DNA of 64,000 nt from Desulfobacca acetoxidans DSM 11109 (lineage in GTDB: Bacteria > Desulfobacterota > Desulfobaccia > Desulfobaccales > Desulfobaccaceae). The position numbers and the translations under genes were made by a program. The notes under the pieces were generated by a model, which was given only the letters and a program-made list of their open reading frames with translations, did no database searches and had not been told where the DNA came from. The stretch covers positions 3,130,001 through 3,194,000 of the forward strand of contig NC_015388.1 in assembly GCF_000195295.1 (NCBI RefSeq), written 5' to 3'. Of this stretch, positions 2,329-25,889 are shown one piece after another. Every line of letters starts with the position of its first letter. Position 1 is the stretch's first letter.

Positions 2329-2446
2329 TTCGGTGGCCATACCACGGGGGTCACACCCGATCCCATCCCGAACTCGGAAGTTAAGCCCCGTCGGGCCGAT
2401 GATACTACGTGGGCAGCTGCGTGGGAAAGTAGGACGCCGCCGAAAT
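2329..2446 (+). rRNA. rrf: 5S ribosomal RNA
   Basis: A 5S gene of about 118 nt follows 23S after a spacer of about 118 nt that holds no tRNA. It has the typical loop-A/B sequence (CACACCCGATCCCATCCCG), the GAACTCGGAAGTTAAGC core and the closing GGTGGCC / GACGCCGCCGAAA pairing ends. A strong rho-independent terminator comes directly after. The ends are estimated from the terminal stem. Confidence 0.95.
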
Positions 2447-2456
2447 TAATTTACAG

Positions 2457-2486
2457 ACCCGGTCTGGCAACAGACCGGGTTTTTTT
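2457..2486 (+). terminator. rrn operon terminator
   Basis: A perfect 10-bp stem (ACCCGGTCTG / CAGACCGGGT) with a GCAA loop is followed by seven T residues. It lies 10 bases after the 5S gene. The same hairpin recurs after the second 5S gene and after the 5S fragment near 13435, and a decayed form occurs near 3231. Confidence 0.92.
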
Positions 2487-2550
2487 ATGGTTTGACGTCC
2501 CATCTTCAATTTGTTATTTTGTACAATAAGATAAAATTGATTTAAGTGGG

Positions 2551-2594
2551 ATCTTCCCGTTGAAACGATTGCCTGACAATGGCGCAGGGAAGAT
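2551..2594 (+). promoter_or_regulatory. Inverted repeat upstream of the first TA module
   Basis: ATCTTCCC (2551-2558) and GGGAAGAT (2587-2594) form an exact 8-bp inverted repeat with a 28-base spacer, about 50 bases before the antitoxin start. Type II antitoxins usually bind inverted repeats at their own promoter, so this could be an operator. No clear -35/-10 pair was assigned, and the role is inferred only from position. Confidence 0.3.
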
Positions 2595-2641
2595 TTATAA
2601 GATTGTTGTATCCTATAAATTTTTGGAGAATCTATTGAATT

Positions 2642-2863
2642 ATGGCAACGCCCAATCTCACATTTGATCATTTACTTACGGAATTCTCCCAGCTTTCCCT
2701 GGAAGATCAAGAAATGCTCCTGGACATCCTCAAAAAGCGCACCATTGAGCAAAAGAGAATGAAAATCGTCCAAGATGTCAAAGTAGCCCAAAGAGAGCAC
2801 CGTAAGGGGCTGACGCGGAAAGGAACGGTGGATGATTTAGTCAGGGATATGGGAAGTGATTGA
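2642..2863 (+). CDS. Putative type II antitoxin (TA module 1)
   Basis: A 73-residue hydrophilic, largely helical protein lies immediately upstream of a RelE/YafQ-like toxin, and the two frames overlap by 8 bases (ATG of the toxin inside GGGAAGTGATTGA). That coupling is the usual antitoxin-toxin arrangement. The N-terminal half is acidic (LSLEDQEMLLDILKKR) and the C-terminal half has a basic patch, then an acidic tail (DDLVRDMGSD). It is clearly a paralog of the protein at 12855-13076, which shares the D(Q/E)EMLL motif, the RxIE(Q/R)KR segment and the xDLxxDxxSD tail. I see no named DNA-binding fold with certainty. The presumed job is to bind and neutralise the downstream toxin and autorepress. 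A GGAG lies about 16 bases before the ATG, which is a long spacing. Confidence 0.72.
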   Translation: MATPNLTFDHLLTEFSQLSLEDQEMLLDILKKRTIEQKRMKIVQDVKVAQREHRKGLTRKGTVDDLVRDMGSD

Positions 2864-22912: not shown

Positions 22913-23012
22913 AAAGAACCTCCAAGATCCATAGACTTTGTATAACAGTGTTTATACAATCTAGAGAGGAAAACTATGGGTTTGATCCATAATTTTAAAA
23001 ATTAATCATCAA

Positions 23013-23042
23013 CTACACCGCAAAAACCCACAGGCCCGGCAG
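23013..23042 (-). repeat. Partial copy of the nrdJ 3' end downstream of TA module 3
   Basis: Thirty bases match 23671-23700, the end of nrdJ, with one mismatch. Read in the nrdJ frame the copy codes R-A-C-G-F-L-R-C-S and then TGA, while the real gene codes R-A-C-G-F-S-R-C-S and then TAA. The copy therefore keeps frame, last residues and stop codon position, with different synonymous bases. It begins 4 bases after the toxin stop codon. Confidence 0.88.
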
Positions 23043-23046
23043 CAAT

Positions 23047-23313
23047 TTATAATTTGCGGTACGCTTTCCCTCTAGGTTGAATGGTGACAATATAAATATT
23101 GGACGATGATTCTTGGATTTCATAGATAATGCGCCAGTCGCCGAACCGGGAGTAGCGCTGGCCAACGACCATAATGAGTGGTTTGGATACGTTTGGGGAA
23201 AGCGGGTCGAGGGCCAATTCGTCAATCCGGGCCTGCAAGCGCTTTTTGGTTGTCTGGTCGAGATTTTTTAGGATCTTGGCGGCCCGGTGCGATAATTCGG
23301 CGCCATACCTCAC
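23047..23313 (-). CDS. RelE/ParE-superfamily toxin (TA module 3)
   Basis: An 88-residue basic protein with the RelE pattern: LSHRAAKILKNLDQTTKKRLQ helices, an LALDP turn, then QRYSRFGDWRIIYEI and a final strand IYIVTIQPRGKAYRKL. The conserved R.GDWRI.YEI core is typical of RelE-like ribosome-dependent mRNA endonucleases. It overlaps the upstream antitoxin by 4 bases (23310-23313). It belongs to a different subfamily from the toxins at 2856 and 13069. The gene is intact. The bases directly after its stop codon are a partial copy of the nrdJ end. Confidence 0.87.
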   Translation of the reverse strand: MRYGAELSHRAAKILKNLDQTTKKRLQARIDELALDPLSPNVSKPLIMVVGQRYSRFGDWRIIYEIQESSSNIYIVTIQPRGKAYRKL

Positions 23314-23573
23314 AGATTGTTTTCCTTCTTAAAGTCAGTCCACAAGACCGTTTCTCCCCGGCGGATTTCCTCCAAGCCGGCTTGAATATCGGCCAGATCC
23401 TCGGGTGAAAATACTTCTTCTTCGAAGTATTCCTGGTTGTAAAGAATCTCGATAAATCTCACCAATAAATCGCGATTTTGGCCCATAACAATCGCCTCAA
23501 CCTTTTTCATGAGATTTTCGAGATATTGCGGGGTCAAGGTTTCCTTCAGACTCGCTTCACTATCTAATGCCAT
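23310..23573 (-). CDS. Putative antitoxin (TA module 3)
   Basis: About 87 residues from MALDSEASLKETL; an ATG four codons earlier is also possible. It is strongly acidic, with an EEEVFSPEDLADIQAGLEEI segment and a hydrophobic helix, and lies directly upstream of and overlapping a RelE-like toxin. It resembles small helical antitoxins found with RelE toxins, but I see no named DNA-binding domain. It sits about 95 bases after the nrdJ stop codon in the same direction, so it could also receive read-through from nrdJ. Confidence 0.72.
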   Translation of the reverse strand: MALDSEASLKETLTPQYLENLMKKVEAIVMGQNRDLLVRFIEILYNQEYFEEEVFSPEDLADIQAGLEEIRRGETVLWTDFKKENNL

Positions 23574-23666
23574 ATTAGCCCCCAAGTCTGACGATGTAAT
23601 AACACATTAGATTTTATCAGGAAAACTCCAAAGACGGGAGGCGCGGCACTTTTCCGCCCGTGCTCT

Positions 23667-25889
23667 TTAGCTACACCGCGAAAACCCACAGGCCCGGCAG
23701 ACGATGCAGCCGCCTTCGTGCTCGACGGCGCCGCCGCAGTCGGGGCAGGACCCCATGGCGACTCCCTCTTCTTTTTCCGCGGCCAGATTTACTTCGGCCA
23801 CCCCGGCCAGGACTTTGGAGATGGCATCCGGGCAGGAGAGCACCTGGCCGCCGTTGGACCAATGGGGATTGGGGCAGCGGATGCCGCTGATCTGTTTGAT
23901 GATGGCGTCCAATTTGACGCCGGCCCGCAAGGCCAGGGAGATGAGCCGACCGGTGGATTCAATCTGAGAAGAGGCGCAGCCGCCGGTTTTGCCCATCTGA
24001 GCAAAGACTTCGCAAAATCCCAGGTCATCTTTATTCACGGTAACGTAGAGTTTGCCGCAGCCGGTATTGATCACTTCAGTGACGCCGGTGGTGCGAGCGG
24101 GCCTCGGTCGAGGGGCGATATATTGTTTTTCGGGCGGTTTTTCCTGGCCAAAGCTCAGCACCTGCTGGTCGCGGCTGCGGTCGCGGTAGATGGTGATGCC
24201 CTTCAAACCTAGTTCGTAGGCCAAAAGATAGACCTGGCGGACGTCTTCGGGAGAGGCGGAGGCCGGGAAGTTGACGGTCTTGGAGACAGCATTGTCGGTG
24301 TACTTTTGAAAGGCCGCCTGAATCCGTACATGCCATTGGGGGGTGATGTCGTGCGCCGTAACAAACAGGCGTCGGATGTCCTTGGGGATTTCCTTCAGAT
24401 CCCGGATAGAACCGGTTTGGGCAATCTGCCGCATCAATTCGCCGTTGTAAAACCCGCGGCGGCGGGCCACATCCTCAAAGTAGGGATGCACCTCCAGTAA
24501 TTCGGCGCCGTCCAGTACCCGGCGGACGAAAGAGATGCCAAACAGGGGTTCGATGCCACTGGAACACCCGGCGATGATGCTGATAGTGCCGGTGGGAGCA
24601 ATCGTGGTGGTGGTGGCGTTCCGCATCCGACCCTTGCCATTGCCGGTATCGTAGATGCTCCCGGGAAAATTGGGAAAATTGCCCCGCTTCTCGGCCAACT
24701 CGGCAGAGGCGGCCTTTGATTCCCGTTGAATGAATGACATCACCTCCTCCGCCACCTTCACGGCCGCTTCGGAATTGTAGGAGATGCCCAGATAGAGCAG
24801 CATATCTGCAAAACCCATAACGCCCAAACCGATCTTTCGATTTTTCATGGTCGCTTCCTCAATCTGCGGCAGTGGGAAGCGGTTGGCGTCGATGACGTTG
24901 TCCAGAAAGTGCACCGAAGCCCAGACAACCTCTTTTAGGGTAGCGAAGTTGACGGCCCCGTTTTTGACCATCTGGGCTAGATTGATAGAACCGAGATTAC
25001 AGGATTCATAGGGCAGGAGAGGCTGTTCCCCGCATGGATTGGTGGACTCAATGAGACCAACGTGGGGAATAGGATTGCCGCGGTTGACCTGATCAAGAAA
25101 GATAAGGCCGGGTTCGCCGGTTGACCAGGCGCTCTGCACAATGAGGTCAAAGAGAACCGCAGCCTTGACCGAGCGCACCGGCTGCTGGGTCCGGGGATTG
25201 AGCAGGGCAAAGTCCTCGCCGTTGATTACAGCCTGCATGAAGGCGTCAGTGACGGCCACCGAAATATTGAAGTTCGTTAATTTATCGGTTTGGTTTTTAC
25301 AGGTGATGAACTTTTCGATATCGGGGTGATCCACTCTGAGAATTGCCATATTGGCCCCCCGCCGGGTCCCCCCCTGTTTAATGGTTTCAGTGGCCACATC
25401 AAAGATATTCATGAAAGAAATGGGCCCTGAGGCCACGCCTTTGGTGGAGAGCACCCGGTCATTTTCAGGCCGGATGCGCGAGAACGAAAAACCCGTACCC
25501 CCGCCACTCTTATGGATCAAGGCGGTATTCTTGATGGCGTCAAAGATACTGCTGATATCGTCATCCACCGGCAGCACAAAACAGGCGGATAACTGCCCCA
25601 ACTCGCGGCCGGCATTCATCAGAGTAGGAGAATTGGGCATAAAAGATCTAGACGCCATGAGATGGTAAAAACACCGCGTCGTTTCTTCAATATCAGCCTC
25701 CGGGTCGTAGCAGCGGTCAACCTCCGCTATGGTTTTGGCCACCCGCAAAAACATATCGACCGGCTGTTCACAGACGTCACCGTGGTCGTCCTTTTTTAGA
25801 TATCTTTTTTTCAGGACCGTCACGGCGTTGGGAGTCAAGAAAATATCTTCCGACAATAGTGATGTCACCAAACCTGCCTCCATGGCCAC
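23667..25889 (-). CDS. nrdJ: Adenosylcobalamin-dependent ribonucleotide reductase (class II)
   Basis: The 740-residue enzyme reduces ribonucleotides to deoxyribonucleotides using a B12-derived radical and needs no oxygen. Key sites are the redox Cys in [10 protein letters not shown], the [20 protein letters not shown] active-site stretch (the radical Cys and Glu in NPCGE, plus SCNLGSIN), [13 protein letters not shown], and [17 protein letters not shown]. The C-terminal tail has a Cys-rich ribbon (CPDCGG ... CIVCRACGF) that probably relays reducing power. No nrdB-like partner is present, as expected for class II. Two NrdR-type boxes lie upstream. The last 30 bases are duplicated beyond the TA module that follows. 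Confidence 0.96.

Follow-up and report, generated by a model that had tools for sequence, protein, structure and literature searches.

How does a toxin-antitoxin (TA) module with no recombinase of its own come to lie directly behind a conserved gene, with a second copy of that gene's 3' end behind the toxin? The question is raised by a 64,000 nt stretch of Desulfobacca acetoxidans DSM 11109, of the order Desulfobaccales (NC_015388.1, positions 3,130,001-3,194,000; hereafter the window, whose positions are used below; G, C and L codes label genomes, contigs and loci). An initial annotation had pointed to three such arrangements in this window, 5S-TA1, 5S-TA2 and nrdJ-TA3. These repeats are real, as Rfam, nhmmer and BLAST matches confirm, and far more cases are found in the order. 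Small accessory cassettes, most of them TA modules, occupy positions at the 3' ends of conserved genes, and immediately downstream comes a second copy of the gene end that lacks its 5' part. The 5S rRNA gene is the chief target, nrdJ and rluD being targets too, and at 5S the layout is repeated, cassettes alternating with 5S pieces behind the 5S gene.

The window start cuts a 23S rRNA gene, whose 3' part (1-2210, + strand; Rfam RF02541) is followed by the intact 5S rRNA gene that constitutes the insertion target (2329-2446, +; RF00001 match 2329-2445; nhmmer nt 1-118) and then by its terminator (2459-2488). Next come antitoxin 1 (2642-2863, +) and the YafQ-like toxin 1 (2856-3125, +; PF15738, E 6.5e-8). 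Antitoxin 1 had no match in a Pfam scan; it is placed before the toxin, and array antitoxin genes of G019, G020 and G025 match it at 66-68%. The first 5S fragment with its terminator copy (3139-3256, +) begins 13 bp past the toxin 1 stop, with 5S nt 30-118 at 3139-3226 (nhmmer E 8e-15). The same order recurs at a second 5S copy with terminator (12636-12753, +; Rfam 12636-12752, and alignment to the first 5S), followed by antitoxin 2 (12855-13076, +; placed before toxin 2, with array antitoxins at 47-48%), the YafQ-like toxin 2 (13069-13335, +; Pfam and ORF (open reading frame) reading) and the second 5S fragment with terminator copy (13334-13469, +; 5S nt 31-118 at 13334-13423, nhmmer E 5e-15), which shares two bases with the toxin 2 stop. 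Both fragments have lost their first 29-30 bases, are complete at the 3' end and run on into the terminator. Toxins 1 and 2 are 52% identical across the open part of toxin 2; the latter contains an in-frame TAG at 13255-13257, and TA pair 2 is therefore probably inactive. Searched against its own genome at E <= 0.001, a 172-base 5S region gave four matches only, all in the window.

The third module lies on the opposite strand, behind a gene with Pfam ribonucleotide reductase domains (23667-25889, -), for which the name nrdJ is kept from the initial annotation and which is the intact target. It comprises antitoxin 3 (23310-23585, -; array antitoxins 34-47%) and the ParE-family toxin 3 (23047-23313, -; PF05016, E 1.7e-8), and 4 bp past the toxin stop begins a 37-bp fragment of the nrdJ 3' end (23006-23042, -), which matches 23664-23700 at 89% (BLAST E 1e-8). 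All three TA pairs run in the same direction as the gene before them. Modules 1 and 2 are related and module 3 is of another family, as had been noted at the outset; this family is, however, also found among the 5S-array cassettes of relatives. Gene-end repeats in the window are more than chance would give. A screen of 315 coding sequences (CDS) in 62 stretches found an end copy downstream in nine, with four for the mid-gene control, and several of the nine represent the same nrdJ or 5S loci. A general repeat family was rejected as an explanation, with only the four 5S matches in the window's own genome and gene-end copies rare among the 315 CDS.

Searching the 5S region against 119 relatives revealed a match in 71, and many of those in the window's order had several pieces within a few kb. 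A match was present in 23 order genomes, and for 20 of these, the window included, loci were obtained wholly or partly (G007, G022 and G027 were left out); downstream copies were counted by searching with the 5S of the genome concerned (E <= 1e-3). In 13 order loci a 23S gene precedes the 5S and the sequence continues for 1 kb or more behind it; 12 of them possess downstream 5S copies, mostly 5'-truncated (G008 and G017 being weak cases), and G009 has a single 5S with no downstream copy. None of 15 outgroup loci from other families (~6 kb inspected; 23S linkage not checked there) has a downstream copy. The single 5S genes of G009 and of these 15 loci are empty sites of the kind that the initial annotation had suggested looking for. 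The outgroup count leaves out two genomes, G036 and G118. In G036, from another family of the phylum, three nearly full copies of 5S plus terminator are scattered among ordinary genes across 12 kb (L076, G036:C16, reverse-complemented: 450-573, 7542-7665 and 11882-12001); this stretch has no 23S gene, and no TA was seen in it.

Within the order, the 5S pieces run head to tail, and a contig of G023 carries 11 of them in 8.6 kb, that is, 10 intervals in a row. Short cassettes mostly share one orientation, with some cargo opposite, such as that at 3294-7406 of the window. Contig edges aside, nearly all pieces found with a 5S profile begin at 5S nt 1-39 and most extend to the 3' end of the gene; BLAST alone shows, in addition, a few shorter remnants of that end. 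Array content differs within a genus next to a shared downstream flank, both among G011, G014 and G016 and between G019 and G020. An assembly artefact as main cause was rejected: the window genome consists of a single 3.28 Mb contig, and arrays of this kind recur in numerous separate genomes.

Many pieces abut stop codons: 32 of 50 begin between -6 and +30 bases from the stop of a same-strand ORF (at least 40 codons; toxin 2 entered by hand), where random placement gives a mean of 6.6 and none of 2000 trials reaches 32. In G005, a piece that falls at a break between contigs (L060 end, L061 start) probably enters these 50 twice, and likewise the 28 pieces compared below. A TA gene is present in 31 of the 42 intervals between consecutive 5S features (counted by eye), the types being YafQ, YoeB/YefM, ParE-type, HicAB, HigAB and MntA/HepT, with HicB-like assignments made by reading where Pfam gave no match. 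An antitoxin that overlaps or adjoins a toxin of a known family marks these as predicted type II systems. ParE (16), Phd/YefM (10), YoeB (7), HicA (6) and YafQ (6) are the top Pfam families among 106 pooled array ORFs, in a tally where one protein may match several families. The remaining 11 intervals have no TA gene and hold orphan or defence-like genes, and the nrdJ site of G011 holds a 45-aa orphan; the idea that the cassettes are TA-only, as was originally put forward, does not survive this. Other cargo includes AbiU2, DUF6414, DUF6557, a DUF4062 protein (PDC-S60-like), an HNH-like gene with an exonuclease, DUF2442 and orphans.

The position at which 5S is truncated tends to follow the toxin family. 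Over six families with 26 members, the within-family sum of squares was 1173 versus 2621, and only 17 of 20,000 permutations were as tight. The truncation falls, across genera, at nt 28-32 in the YafQ family (six members), 3-10 in YoeB (five), 25-31 in HicA (three) and 18-29 in the HicB-like family (four). As to the origin of the pieces, the nearest 5S is the host's own in 20 of 28 and the host's lies within 0.01 in six more, with two against. In four pieces, of which G005 holds three (out of its eight) and G013 one, bases of another group on the left give way to host bases towards the right, judged at six diagnostic sites in G005 and eight in G013. This pattern fits what homologous exchange inside the 5S gene would give, and does not prove it. 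With few sites to place them, the apparent switches fall at 5S nt 17-24, 30-48, 30-48 and 24-64. Three of the four lie, on these few sites, before nt 52, where 5S carries GTTAAGC, which fits GTTRRRY, a motif of the attC sites that, with their R''/R' boxes, bound integron cassettes.

Protein-coding targets show both occupied and empty sites. In G007 and G016, a ParE-type TA pair behind rluD is followed by a 123-137 bp copy of the rluD end. Empty sites are seen where rluD and coaE abut or overlap (G000, G003, G004, G005 and G006, of the window's family) or are 45-55 bp apart (G009 and G013). The nrdJ layout is found in two genomes, the second being G011, with an 86-bp end copy behind the 45-aa orphan gene. 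This gene (MAKNEKTSK...), with a conserved leader, stands behind nrdJ in G011, G014 and G016 (L137, L127 and L128), and of these it is followed by the nrdJ-end copy in G011 only. Gene-end copies at nrdJ and rluD diverge by 11-19%. Furthermore, one HicBA unit occurs twice, at the rluD site of G014 and the nrdJ site of G018; the two are 76% identical over 510 bp, both begin within a 5S 3' tail plus terminator, and they cease to align at the hicA stop. Since it starts in the 5S tail at both sites, it is a unit with an upstream 5S end found at two other genes. The HicBA unit and the 11-19% divergence count among the points in favour of the initial interpretation. Downstream of nrdJ and rluD, different genes are present in most genomes.

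TA families differ in how closely they keep to this layout. All 11 matches to the YafQ family (E <= 1e-12, 31 genomes) were inspected: seven are in 5S arrays, one in G002 is flanked by 34-bp repeats of the upstream gene end, and one in G026 by 32-bp repeats close to the end of a convergent gene. The third copy in the window's own genome (L182, 2894 kb) adjoins a 65-bp repeat (95%) in a rearranged locus and is consistent only; that of G028 (C4) has no repeat. Ten of 11 are therefore in 5S arrays or adjoin repeats, one of these in the rearranged locus. A YoeB copy lies near a 5S piece in nine of nine genomes with a match. The ParE family of toxin 3 gave 51 matches in 19 of 31 genomes, and the loci of 30 copies were tested. 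Repeats at E <= 1e-3 accompany 12 of these, versus 11 of 180 mismatched pairs, and 18 have none. Those at L225, L227 and L228 are simple or REP-like (repetitive extragenic palindromic) and were set aside (L227 and L228 by eye). Nine are target-end duplications, at 5S (five), nrdJ (one), rluD (two) and a convergent gene (one). The initial annotation had stated that its reading would be refuted if most TA pairs of these families had no duplicated gene end; this is partly so for ParE (9/30 duplicated). At seven other TA loci of the window's own genome the upstream gene end was not seen behind the toxin, and two of these lie among simple repeats. In other phyla, homologs at L055 and L056 stand between an rRNA-methyltransferase-like gene and rplI (by reading), with no flanking repeats.

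What mechanism would produce such arrays? The explanation that we consider best for the whole, and to which we give an even chance, is that a cassette carries a stretch of its target's end and integrates by homologous (RecA-type) recombination, stacking into arrays. The cassette would bring this stretch along, recombine with the resident gene by RecA-type exchange, restore the gene at the front and displace the old end to behind the toxin. Each toxin family would owe its own toxin|5S junction to a rare founding event, and later spread would proceed by recombination between 5S copies. The arrays might be kept by TA addiction, by defence value and by the safety of a site behind an essential gene. 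RecA-type exchange, horizontal transfer and the role of addiction are steps that we infer. Somewhat more tentatively, the system may amount to an order-wide, integrase-free mode of gene capture, with the functional 5S gene as entry site, the 5S piece and terminator as recombination module, and spill-over to nrdJ and rluD.

A number of results weigh against integration by homologous recombination. Most genomes compared are fragmented drafts. The link between junction and toxin family is broken by the ParE-type family (nt 3-28, six members) and by a two-member family (nt 1 and 36), and a loose toxin clustering, tried first, put YafQ and YoeB into one group and showed no signal (3147/20,000); the threshold of at least 35% identity was set after this null result and yields the same groups at 35, 40 and 50% (toxin 2 was entered by hand in the first clustering). 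Decay of pieces with distance from the rRNA genes was not significant (2396/20,000). For three of the four chimeric pieces the evidence is a single left-hand site, one G014 piece has foreign and host bases in the opposite order, pieces of G016, G019 and G020 carry bases of other genomes at some or all of two to three sites, and one G000 piece is mixed. At rluD, G020 has a ParE-type TA pair without an end copy, and the left and right copies are 83-87% identical, closer than to other genomes over comparable lengths; as the two copies are closest to each other, a foreign donor is not shown. The differing codons of the gene-end copies (synonymous to nonsynonymous, 7:10, 9:5 and 9:3) would also fit an old local duplication. 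Finally, 21 of the 30 ParE-family copies tested have no target-end duplication.

Several of these points would be expected of an ordinary hotspot for accessory genes, formed by illegitimate joining, local tandem duplication and decay, with selection preserving the essential gene and no mobile unit involved: duplication lengths are variable, the codon differences are compatible with local duplication, different genes lie behind nrdJ and rluD in most genomes, and many TA copies have no duplication. We nevertheless regard it as unlikely, given that families such as YafQ and YoeB share junctions across genera, that arrays reach 10 intervals, that pieces abut stop codons and that a HicBA unit with a 5S tail occurs at two further genes, all of which points to units moving whole. 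Alternatively, the gene-end copies would come first, made for example on an RNA template in view of their 3'-complete, 5'-truncated form: 5S-plus-terminator copies would spread behind genes and TA genes would stand in front of them by happenstance. Most pieces have this form, in several cassettes of the YoeB and ParE types homology extends almost to where the 5S model begins, and G036 has dispersed, nearly full copies with no TA seen. Yet in the window's own genome 5S matches are confined to the rRNA locus, coding-gene ends show the same layout with the gene itself, to its stop codon, as the front copy, and the empty rluD-coaE sites suggest that a whole block was inserted; a copies-first origin is improbable, the least probable of the explanations weighed here.

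An action in trans by a site-specific recombinase (phage- or Xer-type tyrosine, or other) on attachment sites at gene 3' ends, with the cassettes as integrase-less passengers or remnants, would account for a target that is usually a gene 3' end and for the displaced end left behind, and tyrosine recombinases are found in every order genome searched (4-24 stretches matching TIGR02249 in each). The window's own genome has six PF00589 matches, which by reading include two Xer-like and two phage-type full genes. Such a recombinase would nonetheless have to tolerate truncation points spread over 5S nt 1-39 and differing by family, switch points that appear, on few sites, to vary between pieces, and duplicated lengths from 32 to ~165 bp (679 in the window). 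No common core was seen in 5S, nrdJ and rluD, for which no motif search was made, and the best 25 of the 47 Pfam families of array ORFs include no site-specific recombinase, their transposases being rve-type only. We consider this explanation doubtful. Neither did the three window modules contain an integrase gene, and only transposases were found between the two 5S copies. IntI (TIGR02249) was over cut-off in none of 29 order genomes (best 129.5 bits, cut-off 265) and in one of 31 genomes, G029, which is outside the order; an identity with integrons was rejected on this ground. No sign of a dedicated integrase was seen, and one might act from elsewhere.

The cassettes stand close to two known systems, and in its working the whole resembles both an integron array and a gene-3'-end element, but without the defining integrase of each. 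Like integrons and clusters of attC sites lacking integron-integrases (CALIN), the arrays consist of head-to-tail single-gene or TA cassettes, mostly in one orientation, TA-rich and variable in order, with a shared site after each gene. Unlike them, the repeated site is a mostly host-like 5S piece with terminator, the first site is a functional 5S gene, similar insertions occur at nrdJ and rluD, and the 29 order genomes have no IntI over cut-off. With integrative elements at tRNA genes and other gene 3' ends they share the layout of an intact target end in front, a truncated end behind as a direct repeat, and empty sites in relatives. They differ from these in their size of ~0.5-0.7 kb without integrase, their targets (5S, nrdJ and rluD), their repeats of 32 bp to full gene length with no fixed core, and their stacking. 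The initial annotation had envisaged units with no recombinase of their own at gene 3' ends, leaving the displaced end behind, and such units are indeed observed at this size; its overall interpretation is partly supported, in that the mini-elements at gene ends stand, the restriction to TA falls, and at 5S arrays take the place of single units.

Two further comparisons concern TA modules as such. In E. coli, chromosomal type II TA modules are reported (Ramisetty and Santhosh, 2016) to be small horizontally acquired inserts. These bare operons are said to be inserted between conserved genes and to alter flanking gene ends, as here; the duplicated target end, the arrays and the order-wide preference for 5S are points of difference. 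The pdif (Xer) modules of Acinetobacter plasmids are likewise TA-only mobile modules with no recombinase of their own, and differ in being plasmid-borne and bounded by short Xer sites. In the open-licence literature, 5S-anchored TA arrays were not found described, which is weak evidence. TA systems on genomic islands of Pseudomonas aeruginosa are the subject of a separate paper (PMC5481352). If correct, homologous integration of cassettes would provide a non-integron route to arrays of small genes, in which an essential gene's own end replaces the dedicated recombinase and attC, and would bear directly on an open question, the movement of bare TA modules from one chromosome to another. To find such cassettes elsewhere, one can search for a toxin stop with a truncated gene end immediately after it. 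Furthermore, 5S pieces may break assemblies and mislead 5S annotation.

Between the two full 5S copies of the window lie a defence-like helicase and transposase genes. The helicase (3294-7406, -) has an MTES_1575 nuclease domain (Pfam) and resembles the phage-defence candidate PDC-S37 (PADLOC E 5e-67). It is followed by transposase genes at 7478-9033 (+; Pfam HTH_Tnp_1 and rve), probably IS3-type by the family tally, and by a DDE transposase (10302-11828, +; PF01609). Leading into the second 5S is a copy of the 23S 3' end and the 23S-5S spacer (12123-12635, +), which is truncated on its 5' side and identical to 1816-2328. With that 5S included, 1816-2494 corresponds to 12123-12802 with 679 of 679 aligned bases identical and one 1-base indel. 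A recent event, gene conversion or a leftover second rRNA operon are candidate readings of this duplicate.

A viral vehicle was rejected, as viral contigs contained neither a YafQ relative nor the exact 21-base 5S-end pattern. They do carry 16 YoeB relatives of 43-68% identity, the best as close as members of the order; a 5S piece accompanies none of the 16, four of which have fewer than 130 bases downstream. Some flanking repeat is present at two, L195 (88 bp) and L193 (30 bp). That of L195, an IMG/VR contig, is a direct repeat of 89% identity (around 3001-3261), one copy lying ~140 bases past the YoeB toxin match. GC-rich palindromic REP-like repeats are seen within many 5S pieces of L064, L065 and L066, as if disused 5S were a target. 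At L013 (G000:C1:1873000-1890000), tandem CCCATAACC-type repeats come after a TA cluster and are seen again between its modules.

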